A stretch of 64,000 bases of DNA from Cryobacterium soli (GTDB taxonomy: Bacteria; Actinomycetota; Actinomycetes; Actinomycetales; Microbacteriaceae). Location of the stretch: the NCBI RefSeq assembly GCF_003611035.1, contig NZ_CP030033.1, positions 682,001 to 746,000 of the forward strand, given 5' to 3'. This document shows, in pieces, positions 376 to 47,834 of this stretch; the first letter of the stretch is position 1; each line of letters opens with the position of its first letter. The translations under genes were made by a program, and so were the position numbers. The notes beneath the pieces are model-generated. The model saw nothing but the letters and a program-made list of their open reading frames with translations. It was not told where the DNA came from and searched no databases.

Positions 376-391
376 ATACCCATAGGGGTAT
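376..391. promoter_or_regulatory. CsoR/CstR-type operator, copy 1
   Basis: The near-palindrome ATACCCATAGGGGTAT lies 44 bp upstream of the ATG at 436. Its right end continues into TATCCT, a plausible -10 hexamer. CsoR/RcnR-family repressors (Cu- or persulfide-sensing) bind palindromes of this kind, with G/C tracts flanked by AT. Copies 2 and 3 are at 16548 and 47819. The identity of the bound protein is inferred, because no CsoR-family gene lies in the window. Confidence 0.65.
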
Positions 392-435
392 CCTCCCGCC
401 GGCGAAGAGGCCGTCGGGTCCACGGAAGGCATCCC

Positions 436-2955
436 ATGAAGATCGTCGTCGTTGGAGGCGTCGCTGCTGGCGCGTCCGTCGCAGCCCGGGCACGTCGACT
501 GGACGAGGCCGCCGACATCATCGTCCTCGAGCGCGGCCACCACGTGTCCTTCGCCAACTGCGGACTGCCGTATCACGTGGGCGAGGTGATCGCTGATCGC
601 AGCCGCCTGCTGTTGCAGACTCCGGAGAGCCTGCGCGAATCCCTCGACATCGACGTGCGCATCGGCCACGAGGTCACCGGCATCGACCGCGCCACGCGCA
701 GCATCACGATCCGCGAGGTCGATTCCGGCCGGGAATACACCGAGAGCTACGACGCTCTCGCCCTGTGCCCGGGCGCCGAGGCGCTTCGGCCCCCGCTGCC
801 GGGTATCAACCTGGCCGGGGTGCACGTGCTCCGCCGGATCGGCGACATGGATGCCATCAAGGGCCAGTTCGATGCCGCGCTCGCCCAGGCAGCAGCCGGC
901 GTGCGCGGCCCGGTGCGCACCGTCGTGATCGGCGCGGGCTACATCGGCCTGGAAATGGCCGAGAACCTCAAGCACCGTGGTGCACTCGTGGACGTCGTCG
1001 AGATGAGTGACCAGATTCTGCCGCCGCTCGACCACGAGCTCTCGGTGCCGGTCGAGCATCACCTGCGAAGCAGGGGCATCACCCTGCACCTGTCCACGGC
1101 GGCCGCCGCTTTCACCGCCCGGCCCGATGGGACCCTCAATGTGGAGCTGACGGACTCCACCGTGCTGACCGCCGACCTGGTCATCCTCTCTGCCGGAGTG
1201 CGCCCGAACACTGCCCTCGCTGTGGCCGCCGGACTGCAGATCGGCGACCGCGGGGGAATCACCGTCGACACCCACATGCGCACCTCCGACCCGTACATCT
1301 GGGCGGCCGGCGACTCCGTCGAGACCCCGCACACGGTGCTGCCCGGCCGGTGGCTCGCTCCACTGGCCGGACCCGCCAACCGGCAGGCTCGGGTGGCCGC
1401 CGAGAACATCTGCGGCCGCGCCACCGAGTACCACTCCACCCAGGGCACCTCGATCGTGAAGGTCTTCGACATGGTGGCCGGCGGCACCGGGGCCACCGAA
1501 CGTCAGCTCCTGGCCGCCAAGCTGCCTCATCGGGCCGTTCACGTGCACCCGTCCGGGCACGCCGGCTACTACCCCGGCACCGCGATGATGCAGCTCAAGG
1601 TGCTCTTCTCCCCCGACACCGGGCGAATCCTCGGCGCGCAGGCCGCCGGTTTCGACGGCGTGGACAAGCGCCTCGACGTACTCGCCACAGCGCTCCGCGC
1701 CGGTCAGAGTGTCTACGACCTCGAGGAGCTCGAGCTTGCCTACGCGCCGCCGTTCGGCTCCGCGAAGGACCCGGTGAATATGGCCGGTTTCGTGGCGAGC
1801 AACGTGCTGCGCGGCGATCTCACCCTCTGGTACGCCCAGGATTACCCCGACGCCACACGGGGCGCGCGCCTTGTCGACGTGCGCACCCCGGAGGAGTTCT
1901 CGATCTGGCACCTGCCGGGCGCCGAGAATGTGCCGCTGGGCAGCATCCGCGAGGCCAGTGCGAGCTGGGACCACACGGTCCCGGTGCGGCTCTATTGTGC
2001 GGTCGGATTTCGCAGTTATCTCGCGCACCGTGCGCTCGTGCAGCGCGGGTTCACGGATGTCGCCACGCTGTCGGGCGGCTCGGACACATTCCGTTCCTGG
2101 CACGAGGTGGCCCCGGAGAGCGACGAGCCGCCACAGCCGATGACGTCCTACGCCGAGGCCGCTGCGTTCCAGGATGCTGCAGCGGCGAGCTCGGCTCTGG
2201 CGCACGGCACCGGCGTGCGAGTCGACCTGGACTGCTCGGGTCTGGCTTGCCCGGGCCCGATCATGAGACTCTCCGAGAAGATGAAAGCCCTCACCCCCGG
2301 CGACGAGGTGGTCGTGCACGTCTCTGACCCCGGATTCGCCAGCGATGCCCCGGCCTGGGCGAGGCGCAACGGCCACCAGCTCGTGGCCATCCAGCCCGAA
2401 GGCCCCGGCTATGTCGCCACGATGCGCAAGGGCGGCATCACTGCCCCAGCGGCCGCTCCCGGACCCGCAGCGATACCGGCCGGGCCGGGCAAGACGTCAT
2501 TCGTGGTGTTCTCCGGCGACCTCGACAAGGTGCTCGCGGCCTTCATCATCGCCAACGGCGCCCTGGCCATGGGCGAGGACGTCTCGATGTTCTTCACCTT
2601 CTGGGGCCTGAACTCGCTGCGTCGCGCCGACGCCCCCAAGCGGGACCGCAAAATGATGGACAAGATGTTTGCCACCATGATGCCCTCCGGCGCGGGCAGC
2701 CTGCCGCTTTCGCAGATGAACATGCTGGGCGCAGGCGCCGCCATGATCAAGAAGGTCATGAGAGACAACGCAGTGGCGCCGCTGCCCGACCTGATCGCGT
2801 CCGCGCAGACCGGCGGCGCGCGGCTGATCGCCTGCACCATGACGATGGACCTGCTGGGCATTGCCGACACGGACCTGATGCCCGGGGTCGAGCTCGGGGG
2901 CGTGGCGACGTTCCTCGGAGAGGCAGCCGAATCCACCACGACCCTGTTCATCTGA
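436..2955 (+). CDS. FAD-dependent CoA-disulfide reductase fused to rhodanese, TusA and DsrE-like domains
   Basis: An 839-aa four-part protein. Residues 1-~450 are a pyridine-nucleotide disulfide oxidoreductase: FAD motif GGVAAG at 7-12, redox motif SFANCGLPY with Cys42, and NAD(P) motif VIGAGYIGLE. Residues ~455-555 are a rhodanese domain with active-site Cys521 in CAVGFRS. Residues ~595-665 are a TusA/SirA domain with CPGP (Cys605). Residues ~680-839 are a DsrE/DsrF-like domain ending in the ELGG...FLGEA region. CoADR-rhodanese fusions reduce CoA-disulfide or CoA-persulfide; TusA and DsrE domains relay sulfane sulfur. The protein therefore probably handles persulfides in the cytosol. ATG 436 was chosen because GGAAGG precedes it by 6 bp; the frame is open to 349. 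A CsoR/CstR-type operator sits upstream and a hairpin follows the stop. Confidence 0.9.
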   Translation: MKIVVVGGVAAGASVAARARRLDEAADIIVLERGHHVSFANCGLPYHVGEVIADRSRLLLQTPESLRESLDIDVRIGHEVTGIDRATRSITIREVDSGREYTESYDALALCPGAEALRPPLPGINLAGVHVLRRIGDMDAIKGQFDAALAQAAAGVRGPVRTVVIGAGYIGLEMAENLKHRGALVDVVEMSDQILPPLDHELSVPVEHHLRSRGITLHLSTAAAAFTARPDGTLNVELTDSTVLTADLVILSAGVRPNTALAVAAGLQIGDRGGITVDTHMRTSDPYIWAAGDSVETPHTVLPGRWLAPLAGPANRQARVAAENICGRATEYHSTQGTSIVKVFDMVAGGTGATERQLLAAKLPHRAVHVHPSGHAGYYPGTAMMQLKVLFSPDTGRILGAQAAGFDGVDKRLDVLATALRAGQSVYDLEELELAYAPPFGSAKDPVNMAGFVASNVLRGDLTLWYAQDYPDATRGARLVDVRTPEEFSIWHLPGAENVPLGSIREASASWDHTVPVRLYCAVGFRSYLAHRALVQRGFTDVATLSGGSDTFRSWHEVAPESDEPPQPMTSYAEAAAFQDAAAASSALAHGTGVRVDLDCSGLACPGPIMRLSEKMKALTPGDEVVVHVSDPGFASDAPAWARRNGHQLVAIQPEGPGYVATMRKGGITAPAAAPGPAAIPAGPGKTSFVVFSGDLDKVLAAFIIANGALAMGEDVSMFFTFWGLNSLRRADAPKRDRKMMDKMFATMMPSGAGSLPLSQMNMLGAGAAMIKKVMRDNAVAPLPDLIASAQTGGARLIACTMTMDLLGIADTDLMPGVELGGVATFLGEAAESTTTLFI

Positions 2956-16547: not shown

Positions 16548-16563
16548 ATACCCCATGGGGTAT
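16548..16563. promoter_or_regulatory. CsoR/CstR-type operator, copy 2
   Basis: The perfect 16-bp palindrome ATACCCCATGGGGTAT lies 62 bp upstream of the ATG at 16626; its right end runs into TATCCT, a -10-like hexamer, exactly as in copy 1. This ties the small Cys-rich protein to the two sulfur-flavoprotein loci. Confidence 0.7.
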
Positions 16564-16625
16564 CCTGGAGACTTCACCAGGGAGGCCAGCACGGTCATCC
16601 CGAACCTGACTCCGAGGAGACCCCC

Positions 16626-16796
16626 ATGTGCCGAGCCGTGACCTGCCGAACCTGCGGAAAGACAACCTGGGCCGGCTGCGGCCAGCATATCGACCAGGTC
16701 ATGCGCGGTGTGCCCCGCGCAGACCGGTGCGCCGGACACGAGAACGACCCCGCAACGGGCGGCGGCTTCTTCTCGCGGCTCTTCTCCGGTCGCTGA
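16626..16796 (+). CDS. Small Cys-rich, zinc-ribbon-like protein (56 aa)
   Basis: The sequence begins MCRAVTCRTCGKTTWAGCGQ; Cys7-x2-Cys10 and Cys18-x2-His21 form a likely single zinc knuckle (an extra Cys2 and a later Cys are present). The C-terminus is Gly/Phe-rich. I recall near-identical small proteins in many actinobacteria, with no assigned function. GAGGAGA lies just before ATG 16626. The gene is controlled by the palindrome at 16548 shared with two CoA-disulfide reductase/rhodanese genes, so a role in sulfur or metal stress is a reasonable inference. Confidence 0.7.
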   Translation: MCRAVTCRTCGKTTWAGCGQHIDQVMRGVPRADRCAGHENDPATGGGFFSRLFSGR

Positions 16797-46127: not shown

Positions 46128-47804
46128 TCAGGCGGGCAGCAGGGCCGCGGCGGCGCGTTCGGGGTCGGTGCGCGCGGCACCCGTGCCCGCGGCCCAGGTG
46201 AGGTATCCGCCGTCGAGGTTCACGGCGTCGCGGCCCAGTTGGGCGAGCAGCCGCACGGCGGTGTGGCCGCGCTGGCCCACCTTGCAGTGCACGATCAGGC
46301 GGCCCTCGGGCAGTTCGGCCCGACGGGCACGGAGGTCGTCGAGCGGAATGTTCACCGAGCCGGGGATCGCCGCCTCGGCATACTCCCCCGCGGTGCGCAC
46401 GTCGATCAGGGTGGCTCCGGCGTCGCGAGCGGCCTCGAGTTCGTGCCACTGCACCGACGGGGTGAGGCCCTCCGCGGCGTTCAGGGCCACGTAGCCGAGC
46501 ATGTTCACCGGGTCCTTGGCCGAGGAGAACTGCGGCGCGTAGGCCAGTTCGAGATCGGCGAGTTCGGACGCCGTGATACCGCCGGCCATGGCCGTAGCGA
46601 TCACGTCGATGCGCTTGTCCACGCCGTTCCCGCCCACACCCTGGGCGCCGAGGATGGCGTCGGTCTCGGCGTCGACGACGAGCTTGAGCGCCATCGGCTC
46701 TGCGCCCGGGTAGTAGCCGGTGTGCGAGGCGGGATGTGTGTGGAACACCCGGATGGCGCGGCCCCGAGCGCGCAGCAACTTCTCGTTCCAGCCGGTGGCG
46801 GCGATGGCGAGGCCCATCATGCCCACCACGGCCGTACCGAGGGCTGGGCGCACCCGGATGGTCTTGCCGGTGATGGCATCGGCGACCAGGCGTCCGTGCC
46901 GGTTGGCCAGGCCGGCGAGCGCGACCAGGCGTTGTTCGCCGGAGATCGCGTCGGTCTTCTCCACGGCGTCGCCGATGGCGTAGATGCCGGGGGCGCTGGT
47001 GCGCAGCTGGTCATCCACCTGGATGCCGCCGCGCTGCCCGATCGTGAGGCCGGCGGCCGTCGCCAGAGCCGTGTCGGGGCGAACCCCGATGGCGGCGAGC
47101 ACGAAGTCCGCCGCAACGACACTGCCGTCACTGAGGGTGGCCGAGTCCGCGTCGAGCTCGGTCACCTGGGTGCCCAGTCGCACGCTCACCCCCGCGGCCC
47201 GGAGCCGGTCTGCGACCGGGCCGGCCATCTCGGGGTCGAGCGGCGGGAGCACCTGGTCGCCCAGTTCCACCAGGGTGACGTCCAGACCGCGGTGCACCAG
47301 GTTTTCCACCATCTCGAGGCCGATGAAGCCGGCGCCGATGACGAGGGCGCTGCGCGGCGCGACGGCAAGGGCGGACATGGCCGCGTCGACGTCGTCGATG
47401 TCACGGAGGCTGAGCATCCGGTCGCCGCCGGGCAGGGGCGGGCGCACGGGTGACGCGCCGGGCGAGAGCACCAGGGCGTCGTACGGTTCGGTCGACTCCT
47501 CCCCCGTGCCGAGGTCACGCACCCGCACCGTCTTGGCCGCGCTGTCGATGCCGATCACCTCGGTGCGCACGCGAACGTCGAGGGCGAAGCGGCCAGCCAG
47601 CGAGGCCGGCGTCTGCAGCAGCAGGCTGGAGCGCTCCTCGATGACACCGCCGAGGTAATACGGCAGCCCGCAGTTGGCGAACGACACGTGCCCGCCCCGT
47701 TCGAACACCGTGATCCGGGCGTTCTCGTCGAGACGGCGCAGGCGGGTCGCGGCGGACATGCCCCCGGCGACGCCCCCGACGATGATGTACCGATTCTGAG
47801 TCAT
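46128..47804 (-). CDS. FAD-dependent CoA-disulfide reductase with C-terminal rhodanese domain
   Basis: 558 aa. FAD motif GGVAGG (10-15), redox SFANCGLPYY with Cys45, NAD(P) motif IGAGFIGLEMVEN, GDAVEKTDAIS, dimerisation domain ending AYAPQFSSAKDPVNMLGY, then a rhodanese domain (~465-558) with active Cys in VHCKVGQRG. Same architecture as the first two domains of the 839-aa protein at 436, but no TusA or DsrE domain. Predicted to reduce CoA-disulfide or CoA-persulfide with NAD(P)H. ATG 47804 has AGGATGGAG upstream; the CsoR/CstR-type operator at 47819 overlaps the -10 TATAGC. Confidence 0.9.
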   Translation of the reverse strand: MTQNRYIIVGGVAGGMSAATRLRRLDENARITVFERGGHVSFANCGLPYYLGGVIEERSSLLLQTPASLAGRFALDVRVRTEVIGIDSAAKTVRVRDLGTGEESTEPYDALVLSPGASPVRPPLPGGDRMLSLRDIDDVDAAMSALAVAPRSALVIGAGFIGLEMVENLVHRGLDVTLVELGDQVLPPLDPEMAGPVADRLRAAGVSVRLGTQVTELDADSATLSDGSVVAADFVLAAIGVRPDTALATAAGLTIGQRGGIQVDDQLRTSAPGIYAIGDAVEKTDAISGEQRLVALAGLANRHGRLVADAITGKTIRVRPALGTAVVGMMGLAIAATGWNEKLLRARGRAIRVFHTHPASHTGYYPGAEPMALKLVVDAETDAILGAQGVGGNGVDKRIDVIATAMAGGITASELADLELAYAPQFSSAKDPVNMLGYVALNAAEGLTPSVQWHELEAARDAGATLIDVRTAGEYAEAAIPGSVNIPLDDLRARRAELPEGRLIVHCKVGQRGHTAVRLLAQLGRDAVNLDGGYLTWAAGTGAARTDPERAAAALLPA

Positions 47805-47818
47805 GACTCCATCCTGCT

Positions 47819-47834
47819 ATACCCCGTGGGGTAT
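47819..47834. promoter_or_regulatory. CsoR/CstR-type operator, copy 3
   Basis: ATACCCCGTGGGGTAT lies 14 bp upstream of the flavoprotein ATG at 47804 and overlaps its minus-strand -10 (TATAGC, 47817-47822). Same 16-bp pattern as at 376 and 16548. Confidence 0.7.

Follow-up and report, generated by a model that had tools for sequence, protein, structure and literature searches.

Background

The closest described systems to the one reported here are built on repressors of the CsoR type, and the accounts given below are drawn from portions of the cited papers. ScCsoR of Streptomyces coelicolor (SCO0620) is a PF02583-type protein with two sensor cysteines, which binds the 16-bp sequence ATACCn6GGTAT, equivalent to an N4 spacer in the palindrome discussed here, and binds it less with polysulfide; its targets form a local cluster of a persulfide dioxygenase, TauE, a rhodanese and the regulator (PMC7533328). 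CstR of Staphylococcus aureus, a CsoR-like persulfide sensor, represses sulfurtransferase and H2S-oxidation genes, namely cstA, cstB, sqr and tauE (PMC5480029). In the copper CsoR of Streptomyces lividans, which belongs to the same family and serves copper targets, the operator consensus has the same half-sites with an N5 spacer (PMC3902906). Two other CstR-like regulators are TTHA1953 of Thermus thermophilus, with Sox targets far from its own gene and a 20-bp site, TACNNTACNNNNGTANNGTA, without continuous G/C tracts (PMC10318464), and YrkD of Bacillus licheniformis, a repressor over rhodanese, TusA/DsrE-type and also thioredoxin-like genes in a single 11-gene cluster (PMC9918477).

Here we describe a putative regulon of Cryobacterium soli that was noticed in a window of 64,000 nucleotides, at positions 682001-746000 of the single contig (4,385,465 bases) of the genome. 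It shares with ScCsoR a candidate PF02583-type regulator with two cysteines, the 16-bp operator sequence, of which an exact copy is also found at the regulator's own operon, and a rhodanese among the predicted targets. However, these targets are four scattered units rather than a local cluster, they include reductase-rhodanese fusions and a 56-aa protein, and the dioxygenase is absent from the four of them; dioxygenase-like genes face such sites in congeners. A CsoR-like persulfide sensor that would repress sulfurtransferase genes recalls S. aureus CstR, which has another gene set and is from another phylum, while the half-sites are those of the S. lividans copper CsoR, with N4 in place of N5. 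Targets far from the regulator gene are a feature in common with TTHA1953, whose site differs. As with YrkD, rhodanese and TusA/DsrE-type genes are among the likely targets, but in scattered units, and no 56-aa protein was seen in the 11-gene cluster as presented in the consulted part of its report. In kind, the proposed switch is already known: it is CstR-type persulfide repression.

Results

Exact palindromes and the genes behind them

A pattern scan of the window located exact copies of ATACCC-N4-GGGTAT at 376-391 and 16548-16563 on the forward strand and at 47819-47834 on the reverse strand, which confirmed the three palindromes of the first-pass annotation; the remaining seven of the ten matches in the window had three mismatches each, which is the chance level. 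The expected number of exact copies per 64-kb window was 0.0013 from the base composition and 0.0002 from a first-order Markov model, so that the earlier remark that chance is an unlikely source holds well, with about 0.001 copies expected against three found. Across the whole genome, where many copies in front of unrelated genes would have spoken against a regulon, just four exact copies were detected (0.01-0.09 expected; none for the reversed control pattern). At up to two mismatches there were 61 genomic matches, as opposed to 16 for the control, and degenerate copies of the palindrome are therefore common. The fourth exact copy (L022, 3859-3874) is located immediately upstream of an operon for a rhodanese and a regulator.

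The putative operator at 376..391 lies 44 bp before the ATG of a gene (436..2955, forward strand) for an 839-aa protein, in which domain searches found a pyridine-nucleotide-disulfide reductase, a rhodanese, a TusA and a DsrE-type domain. The one at 47819..47834 lies 14 bp before the ATG of a reverse-strand gene (46128..47804) for a 558-aa protein with reductase and rhodanese domains. Both had been called CoA-disulfide reductase/rhodanese fusions. The rhodanese part stands, and the CoA-disulfide reductase model TIGR03385 is indeed the best for both and is matched over the whole length, but with scores of 436.2 and 437.1 bits, under the curated cut-off of 578.8; hence we refer to them as CoA-disulfide-reductase-like. 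For the 839-aa fusion, persulfide reduction combined with sulfur transfer is a putative role. The remaining operator candidate, at 16548..16563, is situated 62 bp before the ATG of the third gene (16626..16796, forward strand), which does encode a Cys-rich protein of 56 aa, with no family match.

Overlap with the -10 region

The right half-site had been proposed to form part of a -10 hexamer, and the hexamers read exactly as claimed: TATCCT at 389..394 (forward strand), with its first three bases common to the operator, and TATCCT at 16561..16566 (forward strand), both put forward from the sequence together with a comparative footprint, and TATAGC at 47816..47821 (reverse strand), put forward from the sequence. 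The predicted promoters themselves fared less evenly, as a consensus sigma-70 scan returned no promoter at any of the three window sites and no conserved -35 was seen among the homologous loci compared (n=54 named loci). On the other hand, the sixth position of the TATNNT hexamer is occupied by T in 41 of these 54 loci, as against 14 of 54 for the mirror position; among the loci of relatives the count is 20 of 25. Two of the four sites of the genome itself (TATAGC and TATAAC) do not have this T. That the right half-site supplies part of the -10 element is thus supported by comparison, and not by the consensus scan.

In four genomes of the phylum sample (L061, L062, L064 and L066), the final AT of the palindrome is the AT of the start codon (GGGTATG) of the 56-aa gene. 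The mRNA is therefore probably leaderless in these genomes, with the operator extending over the start.

The 56-aa Cys-rich protein

No match to the 56-aa protein was found in Pfam, NCBIfam or the PDB sequences, and the AlphaFold model, of modest confidence, comprises two short strands and a short helix, for which a fold search returned no PDB counterpart. Nevertheless, the family is large (1,379 homologs at E<=1e-3), and among the best 120 of them the names shown read hypothetical or uncharacterised. Across 85 sequences C2, C7, C10, G17, C18, G19, H21 and C35 are invariant. The C-x2-C-x7-C-x2-H spacing would suit a single zinc site, which would leave C2 and C35 available for reaction.

Different functions can be envisaged from this pattern. 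The protein might be a store of zinc, whose handling reactive sulfur disturbs, or else a feedback factor that binds the regulator, and we consider this quite plausible, if short of probable: six Cys/His residues are invariant, the 56-aa gene adjoins or trails the regulator gene in several loci, and a section heading in the S. aureus study concerns a zinc-limitation response to sulfide (PMC5480029). Alternatively, and as our best guess, it may be a small zinc-binding protein (through C7, C10, C18 and H21) that accepts or carries persulfide via C2 and C35, a tentative proposal in which our confidence is low. The 56-aa protein seems to be part of the cell's answer to reactive sulfur.

Relatives of the protein also occur on 69 plasmid records in PLSDB (34 from Rhodococcus and 16 from Clavibacter), with no annotated gene under the match in most of the rows listed. 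In a metagenome-assembled contig labelled Acidobacteria (L129), a CstR gene is beside the 56-aa gene, through either transfer or misbinning.

The regulator, its copper-type paralog and their distribution

A PF02583 profile search of the genome identified two genes. The first, matched by the profile at 1667719-1667946, encodes a protein of 94 aa (G000:1667707-1667988) with 81.3 bits to the CsoR/RcnR family (cut-off 22.8), and is the second gene, after a 103-aa rhodanese, of the leftward operon behind the fourth palindrome, about 0.94 Mb from the window sites; a CsoR-family gene with its own copy of the palindrome, which had been suggested as something to look for, is thus present, whereas a genome devoid of such proteins would have spoken against the proposal. 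It has two conserved cysteines, and four residues before the second one there is an alanine where the copper-type paralog carries the ligand histidine, so that the Cys-His-Cys copper ligand set is incomplete. Having the two cysteines without this histidine, the 94-aa regulator looks like CstR. Its best PDB sequence matches, 7mq3/7mq1, are deposited as the copper-sensing repressor CsoR, and we take them to be the pneumococcal persulfide sensor CstR. In NCBIfam the best model was FrmR (40.7 bits, cut-off 133), and there was no CstR model in the output.

The product of the second PF02583 gene, which has a heavy-metal-associated, copZ-like gene as its divergent neighbour, scored 147 bits against RicR (cut-off 175) and is closest, among PDB sequences, to the CsoR entry 4adz. 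The sites of this copper-type paralog are 17 bp long, with an N5 spacer and the same half-sites as the N4 palindromes.

In 30 genomes (our own and 29 relatives), three features, namely the exact site, the 56-aa protein and a strong regulator homolog (to the 94-aa protein), coincided fully: 23 genomes had all of them, and seven (G002, G011, G021, G022, G023, G025 and G029) had none. A strong homolog was one with E<1e-20, a cut chosen after the values were seen, which fall into two groups, at 2.1e-21 or lower and at 8.8e-10 or higher. Fisher's test for this co-occurrence gave p = 5e-7 over the 30 genomes and p = 0.002 over the 11 outside the genus alone, with relatedness ignored in both. A copper-type homolog was present in all seven genomes without an exact N4 site.

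Among 149 genomes sampled over the phylum, the 56-aa protein was detected in 15 and the site in 39, with both in 10, the site without the protein in 29 and the protein without the site in 5 (Fisher p = 0.0006, relatedness ignored). Of these five, G124 is listed with a weak match to the regulator (3.9e-8), and G052, G090, G096 and G150 are not among the genomes listed with a match.

In two loci, L057 and L060 (genomes G096 and G150, without a listed CsoR-family match), a different palindrome, AAATGTCCGGACATTT, precedes the ATG of the 56-aa homolog by at most 40 bp, as if another regulator had taken over. Each of six congeners (G008, G009, G014, G016, G017 and G018) has two strong CstR-type genes and also two or three copies of the 56-aa gene, a pattern that resembles a duplication of the module.

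Spacer length separates the two regulator types

Spacers were counted in fetched loci that had not been chosen for a site (L001-L023 and L180-L219 were excluded), with identical proteins collapsed and a site accepted at no more than one mismatch within 600 bp of the regulator gene. All 17 His-type genes with a site had N5, whereas 43 of the 45 non-His genes with a site had N4, the exceptions being one N3 (L139) and one N5 (L093). No such site was found at 46 non-His and 4 His genes, and six unassigned genes (4 N4, 2 N5) stand outside both counts. In the relatives, N5 was present at 24 of 26 copper-type loci and N4 at none, while a site was found at 7 of 21 CstR-type loci, each time with N4. 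Several of the other 14 CstR-type genes share a stretch with a site-bearing reductase fusion, as in an operon (L187, L193, L201, L208, L212 and L214). Palindrome variants of 15 bp, with N3, were observed close to either the 56-aa gene or the accompanying CstR gene in L117, L139 and L163.

The window sites, with their N4 spacer, differ from the 17-bp N5 operator of copper CsoR/RicR. Given the N4/N5 split and the published tests in S. coelicolor and S. lividans, we assign them to the persulfide type, and the most likely role of the window palindromes is to serve as operators for a persulfide repressor like the one tested in S. coelicolor. The initial description as CsoR/CstR-type sites is supported by the association of N4 with non-His, CstR-like regulators; its sulfur/metal alternative can be narrowed towards sulfur, the genome's own copper-type sensor having N5 sites.

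Since the half-sites are identical between N4 and N5, and the G/C-tract operators of the family tolerate some mismatch, according to the part of the TTHA1953 study considered (PMC10318464), both paralogs, or another regulator, might use the N4 sites in a mixed response to copper and sulfur. This is highly improbable in view of the clean N4/N5 split, the co-distribution of the sites with the non-His regulator alone, and the loss of about 10- to 15-fold in affinity that one spacer base more or less costs TTHA1953 (PMC10318464). It is just as hard to see the regulon as one that answers copper through a sensor of the RicR/CsoR type: a copper-type gene is present in the genome and its sites have identical half-sites, but those sites are one base longer (N5 in 24 of 26 relatives' loci and in the 17 of 17 His-type genes counted above, never N4 in the relatives), in 7 of 30 genomes the copper-type gene occurs without any exact N4 site, and the sites accompany sulfur genes, so that we hold this to be highly improbable.

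Conservation of the site and content of the regulon

At 80 named loci of 56-aa homologs (from Cryobacterium, Microbacterium, Arthrobacter, Agromyces, Corynebacterium, Rhodococcus, Dietzia and others), a site with at most one mismatch was found within 250 bp upstream in 54, exact in 50 of them, compared with 46 of 3,799 background windows taken from other parts of these loci, and the commonest gap between site and gene was 35 bp. The other 26 comprise 19 with a site farther upstream, at 0.37-6.3 kb, and seven with no site anywhere in the locus sequence (L116, L117, L127, L136, L139, L157 and L163). A CstR homolog is present within the flanks (up to 8 kb) of the 56-aa gene in 45 of the 80 loci, and in several, such as L149, L151 and L155 of Corynebacterium, the site, the reductase, the rhodanese, CstR and the 56-aa protein follow one another on one strand. 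In a set of 46 loci of 56-aa homologs, 30 had a site with at most one mismatch within 70 bp. Regulation of the 56-aa gene via the palindrome is well supported by this comparison. That the three window palindromes are chance matches, as the 61 degenerate copies in the genome might suggest, is contradicted by the position of the site being kept before homologous genes across genera, as well as by the four exact copies against the 0.01-0.09 expected, and carries a negligible probability.

Read as operators of a persulfide repressor, the sites outline a regulon whose content was examined over all 54 exact sites of ten congeners and the four of our own genome (11 genomes in total; the listed sites of G020, G024, G026, G027 and G028, and those of congeners whose site positions were not given, are outside this count). 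Genes were labelled by short motifs and BLASTP, and 54 of the 58 sites, a count that stands without a background rate, lie in front of a gene that received a label, in most cases one linked to sulfur or thiols. The 56-aa protein heads the list (16), followed by rhodanese-containing genes (13, dioxygenase-rhodanese genes included), reductase fusions of the two kinds (9 and 3), thioredoxin (8), CstR (6), MFS transporters (4), formate-dehydrogenase-like genes (4), SQR-like flavoproteins (2) and SHOCT-like genes (2), with some sites counted twice as they lie between two divergent genes. One of the six CstR labels, that of the regulator's own operon, depends on an extension of the reading frame, the rhodanese being the gene that comes first in this operon. 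Pfam confirmed the thioredoxin, MFS, rhodanese, Lactamase_B-rhodanese and Pyr_redox_2 labels on one representative each; the formate-dehydrogenase-like, SHOCT-like and SQR-like names were given by eye. Among the four sites without a label, the ORF at L198 resembles a peroxiredoxin by eye. In our own genome the sites stand before the two fusion genes, the 56-aa gene and the rhodanese-regulator operon, which bears out the earlier proposal of a scattered regulon with a sulfur theme. In four congeners (L191, L196, L210 and L215) the site is placed between the 56-aa gene and a divergent gene that is formate-dehydrogenase-like by eye.

Discussion

We regard it as very probable, from the sequence comparisons above, that the palindromes are operators of one CstR-like persulfide-sensing repressor, encoded in a rhodanese-regulator operon with its own copy of the site. 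From the published relatives we infer that the 94-aa regulator would bind DNA and be released by sulfane sulfur. In its reduced form it would sit on the operator and cover the -10 region, because the right half-site gives the first three bases of the TATNNT hexamer. As persulfide or polysulfide rises, the cysteines of the repressor would be modified, and the modified repressor would leave the DNA, so that four scattered units, namely the two reductase-rhodanese fusions, the rhodanese-regulator operon and the gene of the 56-aa protein, would be switched on.

As far as we searched the open-licence literature, three aspects are new: the frequent occurrence of the 56-aa family among the predicted targets, a scattered arrangement that places a four-domain reductase-rhodanese-TusA-DsrE-type protein under the same operator, and an explicit N4/N5 rule for persulfide versus copper operators. 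A bolder proposal would be that the 56-aa family is a new dedicated class of persulfide-handling proteins, a small zinc-bound sulfur acceptor or carrier and a core effector of the actinobacterial CstR regulon, and that the difference of one base pair in spacing between 16-bp and 17-bp operators separates persulfide from copper regulons across Actinomycetota. We lean against this combined proposal, while giving it appreciable weight. If its persulfide-handling part is true, the family would have been overlooked because its members are tiny and unannotated.

The scattered regulon could be read from DNA alone, and the 56-aa protein is tied to it by position, by presence and absence, and by its conserved Cys and His residues. 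With 1,379 homologs at hand, a function assayed for the 56-aa protein would therefore extend to a large family at once.
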